This document shows, piece after piece, positions 17,289 to 20,127 of a DNA stretch of 23,207 nucleotides. The notes beneath the pieces were generated by a model, which did not search any database, was not told where the DNA came from, and saw nothing but the letters and a program-made list of their open reading frames with translations. The DNA comes from a virus: the IMG/VR virus record IMGVR_UViG_3300047409_000140, positions 1 to 23,207 of that record, one strand, 5' to 3'. Every line of letters begins with the position of its first letter. Position 1 is the stretch's first letter. A program made the position numbers and the translations under genes.

Positions 17289-17614
17289 GTTGTGCTCCTG
17301 GTGAGTGGTGAAAGTTGTGTTGCGGGTATGGCGTGAGGTGCAACTGAACTGGCGTCTGAGTTGCACCTCAGCGCGGCGGCGAGGTGCTCGGATGCGGCCT
17401 GCCAGAGCAGGTGGACGTCGAGCAGGATGAAGTCGCGATCGTTCGGGACTGCCGGGAGCGCCTTGGGGTCTCGGATCGACTTCGCTGCGAGGTACGCGGC
17501 GGATGCTTCGTCGATCGTGTCGAATGAGCCGAGGTCGATCAGTTCCCGGTCGATCCAGATGCGAGCGGTGTATCGGTCCCTGAGCTTGATGACGCCGCGA
17601 CGGTGAGGGGCCAT
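17285..17614 (-). CDS. AP2-domain DNA-binding protein
   Basis: 109 residues from ATG 17614 in a TGATG overlap. Residues about 6-45 (GVIKLRDRYTARIWIDRELI, then DLGSFDTIDEASAAYLAAK) show the AP2 fold: three strands with Arg/Trp contacts, the 'LG.FDT.EEA..AY..A' turn and helix. In bacteria and phages AP2 modules usually sit in HNH homing endonucleases; here there is no nuclease. The middle adds a helix (ILLDVHLLWQAASEHLAAAL). The last 25 codons have low GC at third positions and contain a perfect 12-bp inverted repeat and the next gene's ribosome binding site, so the C-terminal tail may be a recent read-through extension. Confidence 0.7.
   Translation of the reverse strand: MAPHRRGVIKLRDRYTARIWIDRELIDLGSFDTIDEASAAYLAAKSIRDPKALPAVPNDRDFILLDVHLLWQAASEHLAAALRCNSDASSVAPHAIPATQLSPLTRSTT
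17334..17370. repeat. Perfect 12-bp inverted repeat with 13-nt spacer
   Basis: TGAGGTGCAACT (17334-17345) is exactly complementary to AGTTGCACCTCA (17359-17370), separated by 13 nt. It lies in the 3' part of the AP2 gene, about 45 nt before the next start codon. As RNA it would form a stable 12-bp stem; as DNA it could be a dimeric-regulator operator. No U-run follows it on the minus strand. Confidence 0.8.
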
Positions 17615-18075
17615 CAGAACATTGCCTCCTGGTGTTGTGGGCGACCAGTGAGCCAGTCGGGCCGTCGGGTCGAATCCTCGGGTGGTCGTCGGCCGATCCG
17701 GTCGAGCTCGGCGAGGTTGGCTGCGACGATTCGCCGGTGGACGTCTTCGACGTTGCGACCGTTCGGGCAGCGGCACGGGGCGACGACTGTGTCGAATTCG
17801 GTGGGGCCGACAACGACGGTTTCCCAGCCATCGCCGCCGCACAATCCGCACGCTGTTTTCTCTTCTCGCGCGGTGCCGAATTGCGCGCGATATGTCGCGC
17901 GGAACTTCGCGATCGATGGTTGGTGTTCTTCGTTGTCGCGCAGCGACTTGAACGCGCTTTCGGCGGGCCCGTGGACGAGCTCGGTGAGGACTTCGTACCA
18001 GATCTCGGTCCCGATTCCGCCTCGCCAGGAGCGGGTGATGCGTTCGGCGAGGTTGCGTGCGTCGACGTCGATCAT
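17614..18075 (-). CDS. Possible helicase-loader-like protein with Cys motif
   Basis: 153 residues from ATG 18075 in an ATGA overlap with the initiator gene. Residues 1-70 (ARNLAERITRSWRGGIGTEI, WYEVLTELVHGPAESAFKSL, HQPSIAKFRATYRAQF) have the 'W...L.......A...L......P.I..F' layout of G39P-type helicase loaders from phages and DnaT/DnaI-like N-termini. A CGLCGGDGWE ... APCRCPNG segment (about 87-120) could bind zinc, and the C-terminus is helical. Position just after the initiator is typical of a loader. The assignment is an inference from pattern and context; it could also be an unrelated zinc protein. Confidence 0.45.
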   Translation of the reverse strand: MIDVDARNLAERITRSWRGGIGTEIWYEVLTELVHGPAESAFKSLRDNEEHQPSIAKFRATYRAQFGTAREEKTACGLCGGDGWETVVVGPTEFDTVVAPCRCPNGRNVEDVHRRIVAANLAELDRIGRRPPEDSTRRPDWLTGRPQHQEAMF

Positions 18076-18758
18076 GGTGTGCTCCCGTTGAGTGCTTTGT
18101 CGACGAACCATGGGTCGCCACCTAGTCGGATTGCGGCTTCTCGTAGCGGTAGACCTGCGGTGATGCAGTCGTTGACGGTGGTGGTCTGTTCGCTGCGGAG
18201 GTTCTTGGCGATCCCGGCGATGAACGCTCGACCTGGTCGTTCGCGGTCCTTGAGAGCGATTGCCTTGGCGGTGGTTTCGATGATCTGCTCGACCGACGAC
18301 GACGACCGATGCCGGGTGTCTGCAGAGTCGTCGTCGTCAGTCGTTTTCTCGGTATGGATGGGTTGGGATGTCTTGGGGTAAGGCGAACGTTTGGCGATGT
18401 TCGGGCGAACGTTCGGGCGAACACTCTGCGAACGTTCACGTACCTTCGCCATCCGTTCGCGGGCTGCGGCACGCTCGGCCTCGACCGCTTCTTTCGAGCT
18501 TTGGTAGTCGAGGTAGTCGTGGACGTGGAACCCGTCTTCGGTGCGGTCGAACAGGCCGACGTCGACCAGTCTCATGGCGAGCAAGATCGGTCGCTTGTGG
18601 TTCGTGAGCCGCTTCACCGCCGCGGCCGGGAGCGCTCCGTCGGTGAGGTGCCGGTTGCAGTATGCGAGTGCGCAGACGTACAGCCAGGCGGCCTCGTCAC
18701 CGGCGGCGAGCACTTTGGGGTGCTCGGGGAAGGCGTCGTCGAGACGGACCCAGGCCAT
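18072..18758 (-). CDS. Replication initiator-like protein (winged-helix N-terminus)
   Basis: 228 residues from ATG 18758 in a TGATG overlap. Residues 1-80 (MAWVRLDDAFPEHPKVLAAG, then LYVCALAYCNRHLTDGALP) are the winged-helix start common to actinophage replication proteins: 'W.R.D....HPKV....' followed by helices, the wing and HDYLDYQ. Residues 85-106 are a charged helix; 107-157 form a low-complexity linker (RERSQSVRPNVRPN, then DDDDSAD and RSSSS). The C-terminal 70 residues are helical, ending GDPWFVDKALNG, and may bind a partner such as the loader. The linker codons contain five iteron-like repeats, so this gene probably encodes and contains the origin recogniser's target, as lambda O does. 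Confidence 0.65.
   Translation of the reverse strand: MAWVRLDDAFPEHPKVLAAGDEAAWLYVCALAYCNRHLTDGALPAAAVKRLTNHKRPILLAMRLVDVGLFDRTEDGFHVHDYLDYQSSKEAVEAERAAARERMAKVRERSQSVRPNVRPNIAKRSPYPKTSQPIHTEKTTDDDDSADTRHRSSSSVEQIIETTAKAIALKDRERPGRAFIAGIAKNLRSEQTTTVNDCITAGLPLREAAIRLGGDPWFVDKALNGSTP
18382..18438. repeat. Five iteron-like direct repeats, candidate replication origin
   Basis: The plus strand carries five copies of a GGCGAACGTTCG-like unit starting at 18382, 18393, 18404, 18416 and 18427, i.e. spaced 11, 11, 12 and 11 bp. The third copy is complete and includes the palindrome CGAACGTTCG. Spacing is one helical turn and mostly not a multiple of three, so the repetition is in DNA rather than protein. 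Sequence just downstream on the coding strand (about 18338-18382) is near 49 % GC, low for this window, as expected of an unwinding region. Confidence 0.6.
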
Positions 18759-19015
18759 CAGCGAGCTCCGACGATGTCGAGGCCGGCGTGGGCGAAGGTG
18801 AGGATCAGGGCGAGCTCGTCGGCGTCGCTCATGTTGCGGGTGTTCCACGTCTGCCATGTCGGGCGTGGCTTGGGTTCAACGGGTCGGTGGCGGCGGCGGT
18901 CTCGCAGCCGGTAGTAGCCGAGCACGCGGCGGTTGTAGTGGTAGTGGAGGATCGCGGCGATCTCGACGTCGCCCACCTCGAGGGAGCGCTCGCGCCTCGT
19001 CACGGGGTCGTTCAT
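18758..19015 (-). CDS. Small basic protein of unknown function
   Basis: 85 residues from ATG 19015 in an ATGA overlap with the WhiB-chimera stop. The first part (EVGDVEIAAILHYHYNRRVL, GYYRLRDRRRHRP) is rich in Arg, His and Tyr and could bind nucleic acid; the end (MSDADELALILTFAHAGLDI) is a hydrophobic helix. No known motif. It lies between a DNA-binding regulator and the initiator. Confidence 0.5.
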   Translation of the reverse strand: MNDPVTRRERSLEVGDVEIAAILHYHYNRRVLGYYRLRDRRRHRPVEPKPRPTWQTWNTRNMSDADELALILTFAHAGLDIVGAR

Positions 19016-20127
19016 GCGACCTGCCCTCGTTGGGCGCGGTACTCGCGCTGGTACAGGGCCTGAGCGGCCTTGCATCGTTCGCATGCGTCTTCGCCGCCGA
19101 GAAGGTGGTCGCGGTACCCGCGGGTGGTGCCGTGCTCGCGTGCCATCACGCCGGCGTCTGGGTGCTCTGCGAGCTCGGCACGCAAGCGACGCCGTGCTCC
19201 GGCTCCGAGGCCGCCGTAGATGCCTTCGAGGGCGTCGAGGTTGGCCATCAGGCAGTCGCGCCGCACCGGGCACGACTTACAGATTCGGACCGCGGCGTCG
19301 TGGGTTTCGATGTCGCCGCGTTGCGGGAACCACATCCTCGGCGGCCGGCCTCGGCATGCGGACAGGTGGCGCCATGGTCGCTCGAGGCGGATCTCGACTG
19401 CTTCGGCGAGCGCGGTGATCAGTTGGCGACGGTCAGCGTCTGCTTCGAGGCGGTCGGCTCTGGCGATCGCCGGCGGGACGACGCGCATCGGTGGCGGGCA
19501 CGGGGTTTCGTGGCCCCACGAGTCTCGGCGTACGGGTCGCCATTCGCCGGCGAGCCAGCGGGAGTGAAGGTTGGCGACCTTGTCGCGGTTGGTGGGGCTG
19601 ATGGTGGTGCGTTTGATCTGCAGGCCGCCCCTGTGTGTGCCGAGCGCCGTGGCGATCGTCGACTTGGGGATACCGGCAGCGGTCATCTCGTCGAGCAGAA
19701 CCCAGGTTGGGCCGGCGGGGATCACTCGCCGGTTCTGGCCGCAGTCGGCGGGTGTGACCGCGAGAATTGCTTCGTGGGTGCGCCACCGGATCCGTTTCGA
19801 TGGTGGCGAGCCTCGGCGGCTGTCGCCGAACACGAGCTTGCACAGGGCGCCGTGCGCGACTCCGGAGACCTTGGCGATCTGTTTGCGGCCGATGCCCTGT
19901 GAGGCGAGCCATTGGACGTGTGCGCGGGCTTCGGTGGCGAGCACGTATGGGGGTTCAAGGCGTTGGGCGCGTTGCTTCTCGTAGAGACGGTTCGCTGTGC
20001 GGCAGTCGTCGCAGCGGCATTTGTCGAGGACGTATGCGGCGTGCTGGCCGTGGGCGTAGACCATCGGTCGGCCGTCGTGTGAGAGCACACCGGCGTCGGC
20101 GCGGAGGGGTCGGTTGGTGAGCTTCAC
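19012..20127 (-). CDS. WhiB-domain / HTH / Cys-cluster chimeric regulator
   Basis: 371 residues from ATG 20127 in an ATGA overlap. Five modules in order: (1) 25-54, an 'HG..AAYVLDKCRCDDCR' Cys cluster (C37, C39, C42); (2) 69-101, a helix-turn-helix (LASQGIGRKQIAKVSGVAHG); (3) 141-191, a second helix-turn-helix of the same layout (MTAAGIPKSTIATALGTHRG); (4) 250-316, a WhiB domain with C258, C283, C286, C292 and GIYGG (302-306, normally G[VI]WGG), expected to hold a [4Fe-4S] cluster; (5) 331-365, a second copy of module 1 (EHGTTRGYRDH ... CERC). Typical WhiB proteins have 80-140 residues and no HTH. A redox-responsive or sigma-binding transcription regulator is inferred. All four WhiB cysteines are present. 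Confidence 0.8.
   Translation of the reverse strand: MKLTNRPLRADAGVLSHDGRPMVYAHGQHAAYVLDKCRCDDCRTANRLYEKQRAQRLEPPYVLATEARAHVQWLASQGIGRKQIAKVSGVAHGALCKLVFGDSRRGSPPSKRIRWRTHEAILAVTPADCGQNRRVIPAGPTWVLLDEMTAAGIPKSTIATALGTHRGGLQIKRTTISPTNRDKVANLHSRWLAGEWRPVRRDSWGHETPCPPPMRVVPPAIARADRLEADADRRQLITALAEAVEIRLERPWRHLSACRGRPPRMWFPQRGDIETHDAAVRICKSCPVRRDCLMANLDALEGIYGGLGAGARRRLRAELAEHPDAGVMAREHGTTRGYRDHLLGGEDACERCKAAQALYQREYRAQRGQVA

Follow-up and report, generated by a model that had tools for sequence, protein, structure and literature searches.

An origin of replication that lies inside the gene for its initiator is an already known kind. In phage lambda, ori is located within gene O, and its iterons, which are bound by the encoded initiator, adjoin a region that opens (PMC5043065). 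The lambda iterons sit between the binding and the partner domains of O. In the Bacillus phage SPP1, oriL comprises direct repeats in gene 38 that are bound by gp38, with a separate loader, gp39, and a DnaB-type helicase, gp40 (PMC6316719). In the RepA_N initiators of plasmids and of the PLE satellite, an N-terminal winged helix, which resembles the N-terminal domain of DnaD, binds iterons, and the C-terminal domains vary (PMC7145576). RepA_N origins lie inside rep. In the DnaA-trio, one strand carries a very short word that recurs with a constant step and adjoins the double-strand sites of the initiator (PMC10797057). For RepA-encoding phages, the origin was thought by Wetzel et al. to be just upstream of or within repA, and no repeated motifs were found between the tail genes and parS-L (PMC7157519).

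The window considered here, that is, the whole stretch of DNA that was analyzed, is the virus record IMGVR_UViG_3300047409_000140 with its 23,207 bases. Profile scans of its ORFs identified tail, capsid, portal, RusA, RecT, and WhiB-like genes, the last three near the gene discussed here; Rfam and tRNA scans of the window gave no match. Residues 1 to 160 of the product of this gene match phrog_2447, "replication initiation protein" (a profile match to the N-terminal part, E = 6.9e-34), and tblastn with this protein, hereafter the initiator, found matches in 329 phage records. The window also encodes (19012-20127, minus strand) a protein of 371 aa, in which residues 252 to 315 match a WhiB domain and other parts match, more weakly, phage families that are unknown or named for HNH endonuclease; this is longer than the usual WhiB protein. 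The features of the locus are as follows.

18072-18758, minus strand: initiator gene, with a 228-aa product consisting of a winged-helix part, a linker, and a C-terminal helical part
17614-18075, minus strand: next gene, whose ATG overlaps the initiator TGA (ATGA); possibly a helicase loader
18382-18438: iteron array, five ~11-bp GGCGAACGTTCG-like units
18439-18448 (CGAAGGTACG) and 18450-18459 (CGAACGGATG): two degenerate units, a possible extension of the array, read from the sequence with their significance not assessed
18351-18381, minus (coding) strand: degenerate C-rich tract, the counterpart of the short-period tract of the relatives
18337-18350: AT-richer stretch behind the tract; the relatives are AT-richer just past the tract
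18290-18343: GAC/GTC inverted repeat, with 17-nt arms at 18290-18306 and 18327-18343 that are 94% complementary

In the predicted structure of the initiator, confidence is high up to residue 110, with a helix at residues 89 to 112, and low at approximately 113 to 153; predicted helices at 154 to 223 make up the C-terminal helical part. Structure comparison points to a winged helix in general and does not single out any family. The best row was Rio2 kinase (Z = 8.1), the RepA_N initiator domains 4pt7 and 4pta aligned with Z scores of 7.0 and 6.6, the DnaD N-terminal domain 2vn2 with 6.6, and LexA, ORC, and MarR-like chains scored similarly to the DnaD and RepA_N domains. PDB sequence searches returned nothing useful, and the best Foldseek match in PDB had an E value of only 0.24; against viral models, Foldseek produced 18 matches at E ≤0.001, including phage replisome organizers and DUF1376 proteins. 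The likeness to RepA_N is one of fold, tied with that of unrelated winged helices and without a sequence match (no hit to PF06970 in a Pfam scan of the initiator with E up to 1), and no description of a short-period tract such as that presented below was found in PMC7145576. With the cluster A RepA of Miko and other phages, the protein shares the character of an actinophage initiator with a helix-turn-helix. However, homology to the Miko RepA is not established, and no repeated motifs are reported there for the region between the tail genes and parS-L, whereas repeats and tract are plain here.

The next gene is a possible helicase loader on the strength of a weak BLASTP similarity of its product to Blett gp43, annotated as "helicase loader" (15 of 43 residues identical, E = 2e-4, a single comparison); a Pfam scan of this product gave no match. 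In Blett, the initiator gene is followed by the genes for the helicase loader and DnaB, and in MrSmee, by the gene for DnaB. The resemblance to SPP1 thus includes both the repeats in the initiator gene and, in Blett, the separate loader and DnaB. In contrast, the AT-rich unwinding element and the second origin, oriR, of SPP1 are not seen here.

The five units of the array start at 18382, 18393, 18404, 18416, and 18427, and TRF run on the window returned an array at 18382-18437 with a period of 11, 4.9 copies, and 74% matches. The array occupies nt 321 to 377 of the initiator gene (residues 107 to 126), which places it at the end of helix 89-112 and the start of the linker. The earlier note, made from the sequence alone, had described five units at spacings of 11, 11, 12, and 11 in codons 107 to 126, which holds, and had put them exactly in the linker, which holds only in part, as the array begins in the end of the helix. 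A clump of five related 8-mers in 60 bp was matched by only 2 of 500 synonymous-codon shuffles. The best single-lag score was matched by 69 of 500 and is not unusual; the statistic that sums the best lags was matched by 1 of 100. Allowing at most one mismatch, the window contains CGAACGTTCG 6 times (expectation, 2.23); 2 of 100 shuffles reach this number, and 3 of the 6 occurrences fall within the array. The repeated peptide VRPNVRPN is visible in the linker. On the coding strand, the array is followed by 45 bp (18337-18381) with a GC content of 49%, compared to 63% for the whole gene, in agreement with the earlier note, and only 0.4% of the 45-bp stretches in the window are as GC-poor. The correspondence of this stretch to a conserved short-period tract had been missed.

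Conservation of the repeats was evaluated in 12 named actinophage loci, one early locus, and three sets of viral contigs, referred to as A2 (the best 80 of 301 related loci), A4 (the best 80 of 249, from a search seeded with the window), and A3 (72 of 72). After removal of near-duplicates (≥90% nucleotide identity), 210 loci remained: the window itself, 13 named or early loci, 72 from A2, 64 from A4, and 60 from A3. An earlier set used for the tract retained 86 loci after 8 of 94 were removed as duplicates. Self-similarity at each lag was measured from nt 288 of the gene up to the short-period tract, with synonymous shuffles as controls for the 142 coding loci and base shuffles for the 68 loci with early-ending ORFs. 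All 60 A3 loci have ORFs shorter than 480 nt, so that the tract and part of the tested stretch fall in the gap behind the ORF.

The coding homologues show an excess of self-similarity at lags 11, 12, 22, 23, and 24 (z = 43, 19, 40, 14, and 10, respectively), and no other lag from 7 to 30 has a z above 3. Among the loci with early-ending ORFs, the excess is seen at lags 11 to 13 (z = 13, 28, and 36) and 23 to 26 (z = 8, 25, 21, and 9). Individually, 97 of 142 coding loci and 60 of 68 early-ending loci pass the test at ≤5/100. A single 7-mer clump test was passed at ≤3/60 by 58 of the 142 coding loci and by 25 of the 68 with early-ending ORFs; the lag test was used instead because this one is weak, its shuffles often reaching 4 copies. 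These data show that the repeats are maintained as DNA in this initiator family. Retention of the repeat as DNA had been claimed in the earlier note, with conservation among homologous genes as the proposed check; the claim holds, even though 45 of 142 and 8 of 68 loci fail individually.

The alternative explanation at the protein level is that the linker is a low-complexity region with repeated residues, of which the DNA repeat is a by-product. In its favor are the VRPNVRPN peptide in the window and the contribution of lag 12, which is a multiple of the codon length. However, lags 11, 22, and 23 are not, and synonymous shuffles preserve the protein but lose the signal. Furthermore, the iterons are kept in the 60 of 68 early-ending loci mentioned above, and the short-period tract lies past the stop codon in 47 of 60 A3 loci. 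This explanation is all but excluded.

The iteron motif itself varies. It is GAACGTTC-like in the window, MrSmee, and UmaThurman, GTGAC- or GTAAC-like in Gudmit and Melba, and GGCAAA- or AGCAAA-like, CGATC-like, or yet another in other phages. Similarity of the repeats tracks similarity of the winged helices (Mantel r = 0.45, reached in 0 of 999 permutations) in 98 loci selected by length, a lag result of ≤10/100, and the presence of at least two repeated words. Among pairs with C-terminal identity below 0.35, repeat words are shared by 40% of the 60 pairs whose winged helices are at least 0.70 identical but only by 1.5% of the 1372 pairs in which this identity is below 0.35. UmaThurman and Melba represent a natural swap, in which the C-terminal parts are 74% identical, the winged helices are 34% identical, and the iterons are different. 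In the nine pairs of this kind (C-terminal identity ≥0.5, winged-helix identity <0.5), the four with winged-helix identities of 0.30 to 0.38 share no words, and the other five, at 0.42 to 0.49, do. Thus, the type of repeat is linked to the winged-helix domain, even where the C-terminal domains are unrelated. As counterpoints, certain pairs with winged-helix identity above 0.7 have no repeat words in common, and physical adjacency by itself would produce some linkage between the repeats and the winged helix. For the window, 13 of the 16 closest winged helices (identities of 0.47 to 0.55) pass the lag test at ≤5/100, but most of these nearest homologues carry different iteron motifs, and only one (L095) clearly has, as judged by eye, GAAC/GTTC iterons. 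This motif is commoner at loci of lower identity; at least five such words are found in 26 of 210 loci, some of them incidentally.

In the first 12 homologues, TRF detected runs of very short words near or behind the iterons. The words include CCCAT, CCCGA, ACCCG, TCCCT, CCAAC, and also CCCGTA; in non-coding gaps, they are words of 4 or 6 bases, among them ACGN. This tract exceeds synonymous shuffles (≤3/300) in 57 of 80 coding homologues, and the strongest 4- to 7-bp tract of the locus falls in this stretch, which averages 8% of the locus, in 72 of 86 loci. Chains of at least four CCC runs are present in 63 of 86 loci, compared to 4 of 892 control chunks, and GGG chains in none of the 86. In the later set A4, the strongest tract is found here in 49 of 64 loci and C chains in 46 of 64. 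In A3, the strongest tract is also here in 49 of 60 loci, mostly with the ACGN word and without any C chains (0/60): at least three ACGN units are seen in 47 of 60 loci, in all 47 past the stop codon, and in none of the 60 within the first 310 nt of the gene. The form ACGGACGGA occurs in 34 of the 60 A3 loci, and CCGTCCGT occurs in none. Of the 81 loci in which both elements are clear, 77 have the iterons first and the tract second; in two coding loci, L024 (346-446 from the initiator start) and L033 (350-427), the order is reversed. The encoded peptides vary (PDPTR, PVPSR, PIPSH, PFPSL, and PLLSS), and the arrangement and orientation remain constant. In six of the eight whole named genomes, this tract is the strongest of its kind in the genome, the exceptions being Taheera (rank 6) and Blett (none at threshold).

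The A3 loci (L174-L245) additionally share words past the ACGN tract, at approximately nt 380 to 600 from the initiator start, such as ACTCACCT, TAACGGAG, and GTAACGCGC; these words of the short-ORF relatives are likely to be further parts of the origin. Formation of G-quadruplexes was considered as a general function of the tract and rejected as a universal one, given that the motif is found in 0 of 60 A3 loci. The C chains (63/86 and 46/64) would make such motifs on the template strand, which leaves this possibility for some clades.

Among known elements, the DnaA-trio comes closest to this tract. However, the trio has a step of 3 and is used by DnaA, whereas here the steps are 4 to 7, the words are many, and the initiator has a winged helix; the tract does not qualify as a DnaA-trio, which requires a three-base word with a step of 3 beside a DnaA box. 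The parallel is an analogy, and single-strand binding has not been shown. In the open-access literature searched (synonyms were not exhausted), no description of a short-period tract was found, which is weak evidence of novelty. As far as this search can tell, the tract with its clade-specific word and the frequent hairpin behind it are likely to be new.

Immediately past the tract, the AT fraction of the first 10 nt is 0.55 in A2 and 0.58 in A4, compared to 0.34 and 0.33 further on. A perfect short hairpin is found past the tract in 33 of 67 A2 loci and 18 of 53 A4 loci; A4 played no part in its discovery. The control values were 3/201 (A2) and 7/159 (A4) for winged-helix codons, 24/670 and 18/530 for shuffles, and 1/53 for A4 further downstream. 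The A2 loops are mostly TAAC, TAAA, TGAC, TTAC, or TAC, and those in A4 are more varied. Template-strand readings of the type C-GNNA-G (TNAC loops) and C-GNA-G (TAC loops) belong to unusually stable kinds of DNA hairpins. The word CTNACG was also tried as a mark of the region past the tract and dropped as not specific: it occurred in 39 of 131 loci, compared to 7.6 in shuffles, but also in 41 of 131 in one winged-helix control stretch.

In the window, the iterons are clear, and the junction between the last of them and the tract, GTTCGCCTTACCCC, fits the pattern GTTCGC[CG]TTACCCC, which is common to MrSmee, L044, and L067. Past this junction, the tract (CCCCAAGACATCCCAACCCATCC) is degenerate, and the test for a short-period tract in the window linker revealed none that was significant (172/300 shuffles). 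A search of the window for the short hairpin with a 3- to 4-nt loop found none. The GAC/GTC inverted repeat, whose arms encode runs of DDDD and SSSS, is a possible but uncertain counterpart of the hairpin of the relatives. With its degenerate tract and missing short hairpin, the window is an eroded or divergent member of the family, and the general claim about the tract rests on the relatives.

What is shown is the DNA anatomy of this region, together with the fact that it is maintained and is tied to the winged helix. That the array is the initiator-binding part of a phage replication origin embedded in the initiator gene is very likely, because of the family of the gene, the DNA periodicity, the link to the winged helix, the second tract, and the neighboring replication genes in relatives. 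Binding, opening, helicase loading, and origin activity are all inferred, without any experiment. In the proposed mechanism, the ~11-bp iterons, which recur roughly once per helical turn, would be occupied by copies of the winged helix lined up along a single side of the duplex. The bound complex would strain or open the adjoining DNA, which comprises the C-rich tract and then the AT-richer stretch. That tract may then offer the initiator or the loader a strand-specific ladder on which to land, and the hairpin may hold the other strand or mark a priming site. The C-terminal part of the initiator, together with the product of the next gene, would bring in the replicative helicase.

Similarly to lambda, this arrangement would have the origin inside the initiator gene and iterons for the encoded initiator, although here the binding is inferred. 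In lambda, the iterons are four inverted repeats of 19 bp and the AT-rich region spans 40 bp; here, the units are ~11 bp long and, in the relatives, the short-period tract is GC-rich. No sequence relation to O was detected. The lambda-like precedent invoked in the earlier note holds for an origin within an initiator gene (PMC5043065), and its central claim, that the array is an origin bound by the protein in whose gene it lies, is supported as very likely, with binding and activity remaining inferences.

GC skew, another check that the note had proposed, gave no support. In the window, the skew keeps its sign around 18.4 kb, and the eight whole phage genomes are inconsistent, with percentiles of the step at the predicted origin of 0.88, 0.35, 0.91, 0.88, 0.11, 0.15, 0.89, and 0.02; skew is therefore unusable as supporting evidence. 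Propionibacterium phage E6 (L286), unlike the other seven genomes, has its cumulative GC skew maximum at ~33607, beside the tract at 33620-33643. Only in MrSmee is the strongest 11- to 13-bp repeat signal of the genome found in the origin region. In the other seven genomes, this region ranks 2, 14, 2, 2, none, 4, and 13, and rank 2 in Blett and Sarge derives from the short-period tract itself. The strongest 11- to 13-bp signal in E6 comes from a long repeat with a 12-bp period at 28929-29125, in gene 40, which is unrelated to the initiator.

Two further explanations retain the DNA-level repeats but assign them a different role. If the repeats were operator sites, the winged-helix protein would control its own operon and replication would start elsewhere. 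Many repressors contain winged helices, the structure comparison gave LexA and MarR-like chains scores similar to those of initiators, and an initiator can double as a repressor at iterons. However, the sites are located ~320 nt into the gene or behind it rather than at its beginning, an operator would not need long phased arrays together with a second tract and a hairpin, and the family is named for replication initiation, which makes this explanation unlikely. Still less probable is a partition site. In cluster A mycobacteriophages, parS consists of direct repeats of an 8-bp motif, some of them adjoining repA (PMC7157519), and Blett has an annotated protein with a ParB-like nuclease domain. 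Against this, no ParA or ParB match was found among those window ORFs that were scanned (not all were), and seven of the eight whole relatives have an annotated integrase and so have no need to be partitioned as plasmids. A parS-like role is thus very unlikely, and an origin remains the preferred reading.

To estimate how widespread such tracts are, 2.9 million viral contigs were scanned for word repeats only, and the matches were traced back to genes. The (ACCAG)n repeat yielded 21 stretches, nine of them in genes that match replication initiation, primosomal, or replisome families; among the other 12, only two ORFs were scanned, a methyltransferase (L254) and one without a match (L265). The (CCCAT)n repeat yielded 13 stretches. 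Six scanned genes match the same families, and three more (L276, L278, and L279) have an N terminus and linker identical to one matching gene, their family being assigned by likeness only. The remaining stretches comprise two scanned ORFs without a family match and two without an ORF of ≥120 aa over the repeat. The initiation and primosomal genes with pentamer tracts are as follows.

(ACCAG)n: L249, L253, L255, L258-L261, L263, L264
(CCCAT)n: L267, L268, L270, L272, L275, L277

Certain (ACCAG)n genes bear other N-terminal domains, such as DUF1376 and Lin1244_N. The ACCAG and CCCAT tracts are also present in other families of replication initiation or primosomal genes, where their translations are DQTRP or PIPSH peptides. 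The tract is therefore neither limited to one initiator family nor exclusive to initiators.

A bolder reading, somewhat less likely than not, is that tailed phages whose initiators have a winged helix possess a common type of origin, which consists of three parts and moves together with the initiator gene. Its parts would be helically phased iterons, a strand-oriented tract of a 4- to 7-base word at a fixed step, and an AT-richer, often hairpin-forming stretch. The tract would correspond in phages to the DnaA-trio and act as a ladder on which the initiator or the helicase loader docks step by step on single-stranded DNA, a role that is inferred with no single-strand binding shown. Its word would have changed many times while the arrangement and orientation were kept, and it would mark origins across different initiator families and be visible in genomes through unusual linker peptides (for example, PDPTRPDPTRP, PIPSHPIPS, and DQTRPDQTRP).

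The origins of most sequenced phages are unmapped. Should this reading prove true, the origin of many actinophages could be located simply by inspecting the initiator gene or the gap that follows it, and perhaps the same would apply to other phages with winged-helix initiators. The low-complexity linker peptides of phage initiators would be explained as DNA signals. The passage of an initiator from double-strand binding to opening has been studied closely in few systems; in phages, the conserved tract would allow origin opening to be tested on a short DNA, for which nature supplies a broad range of variants.
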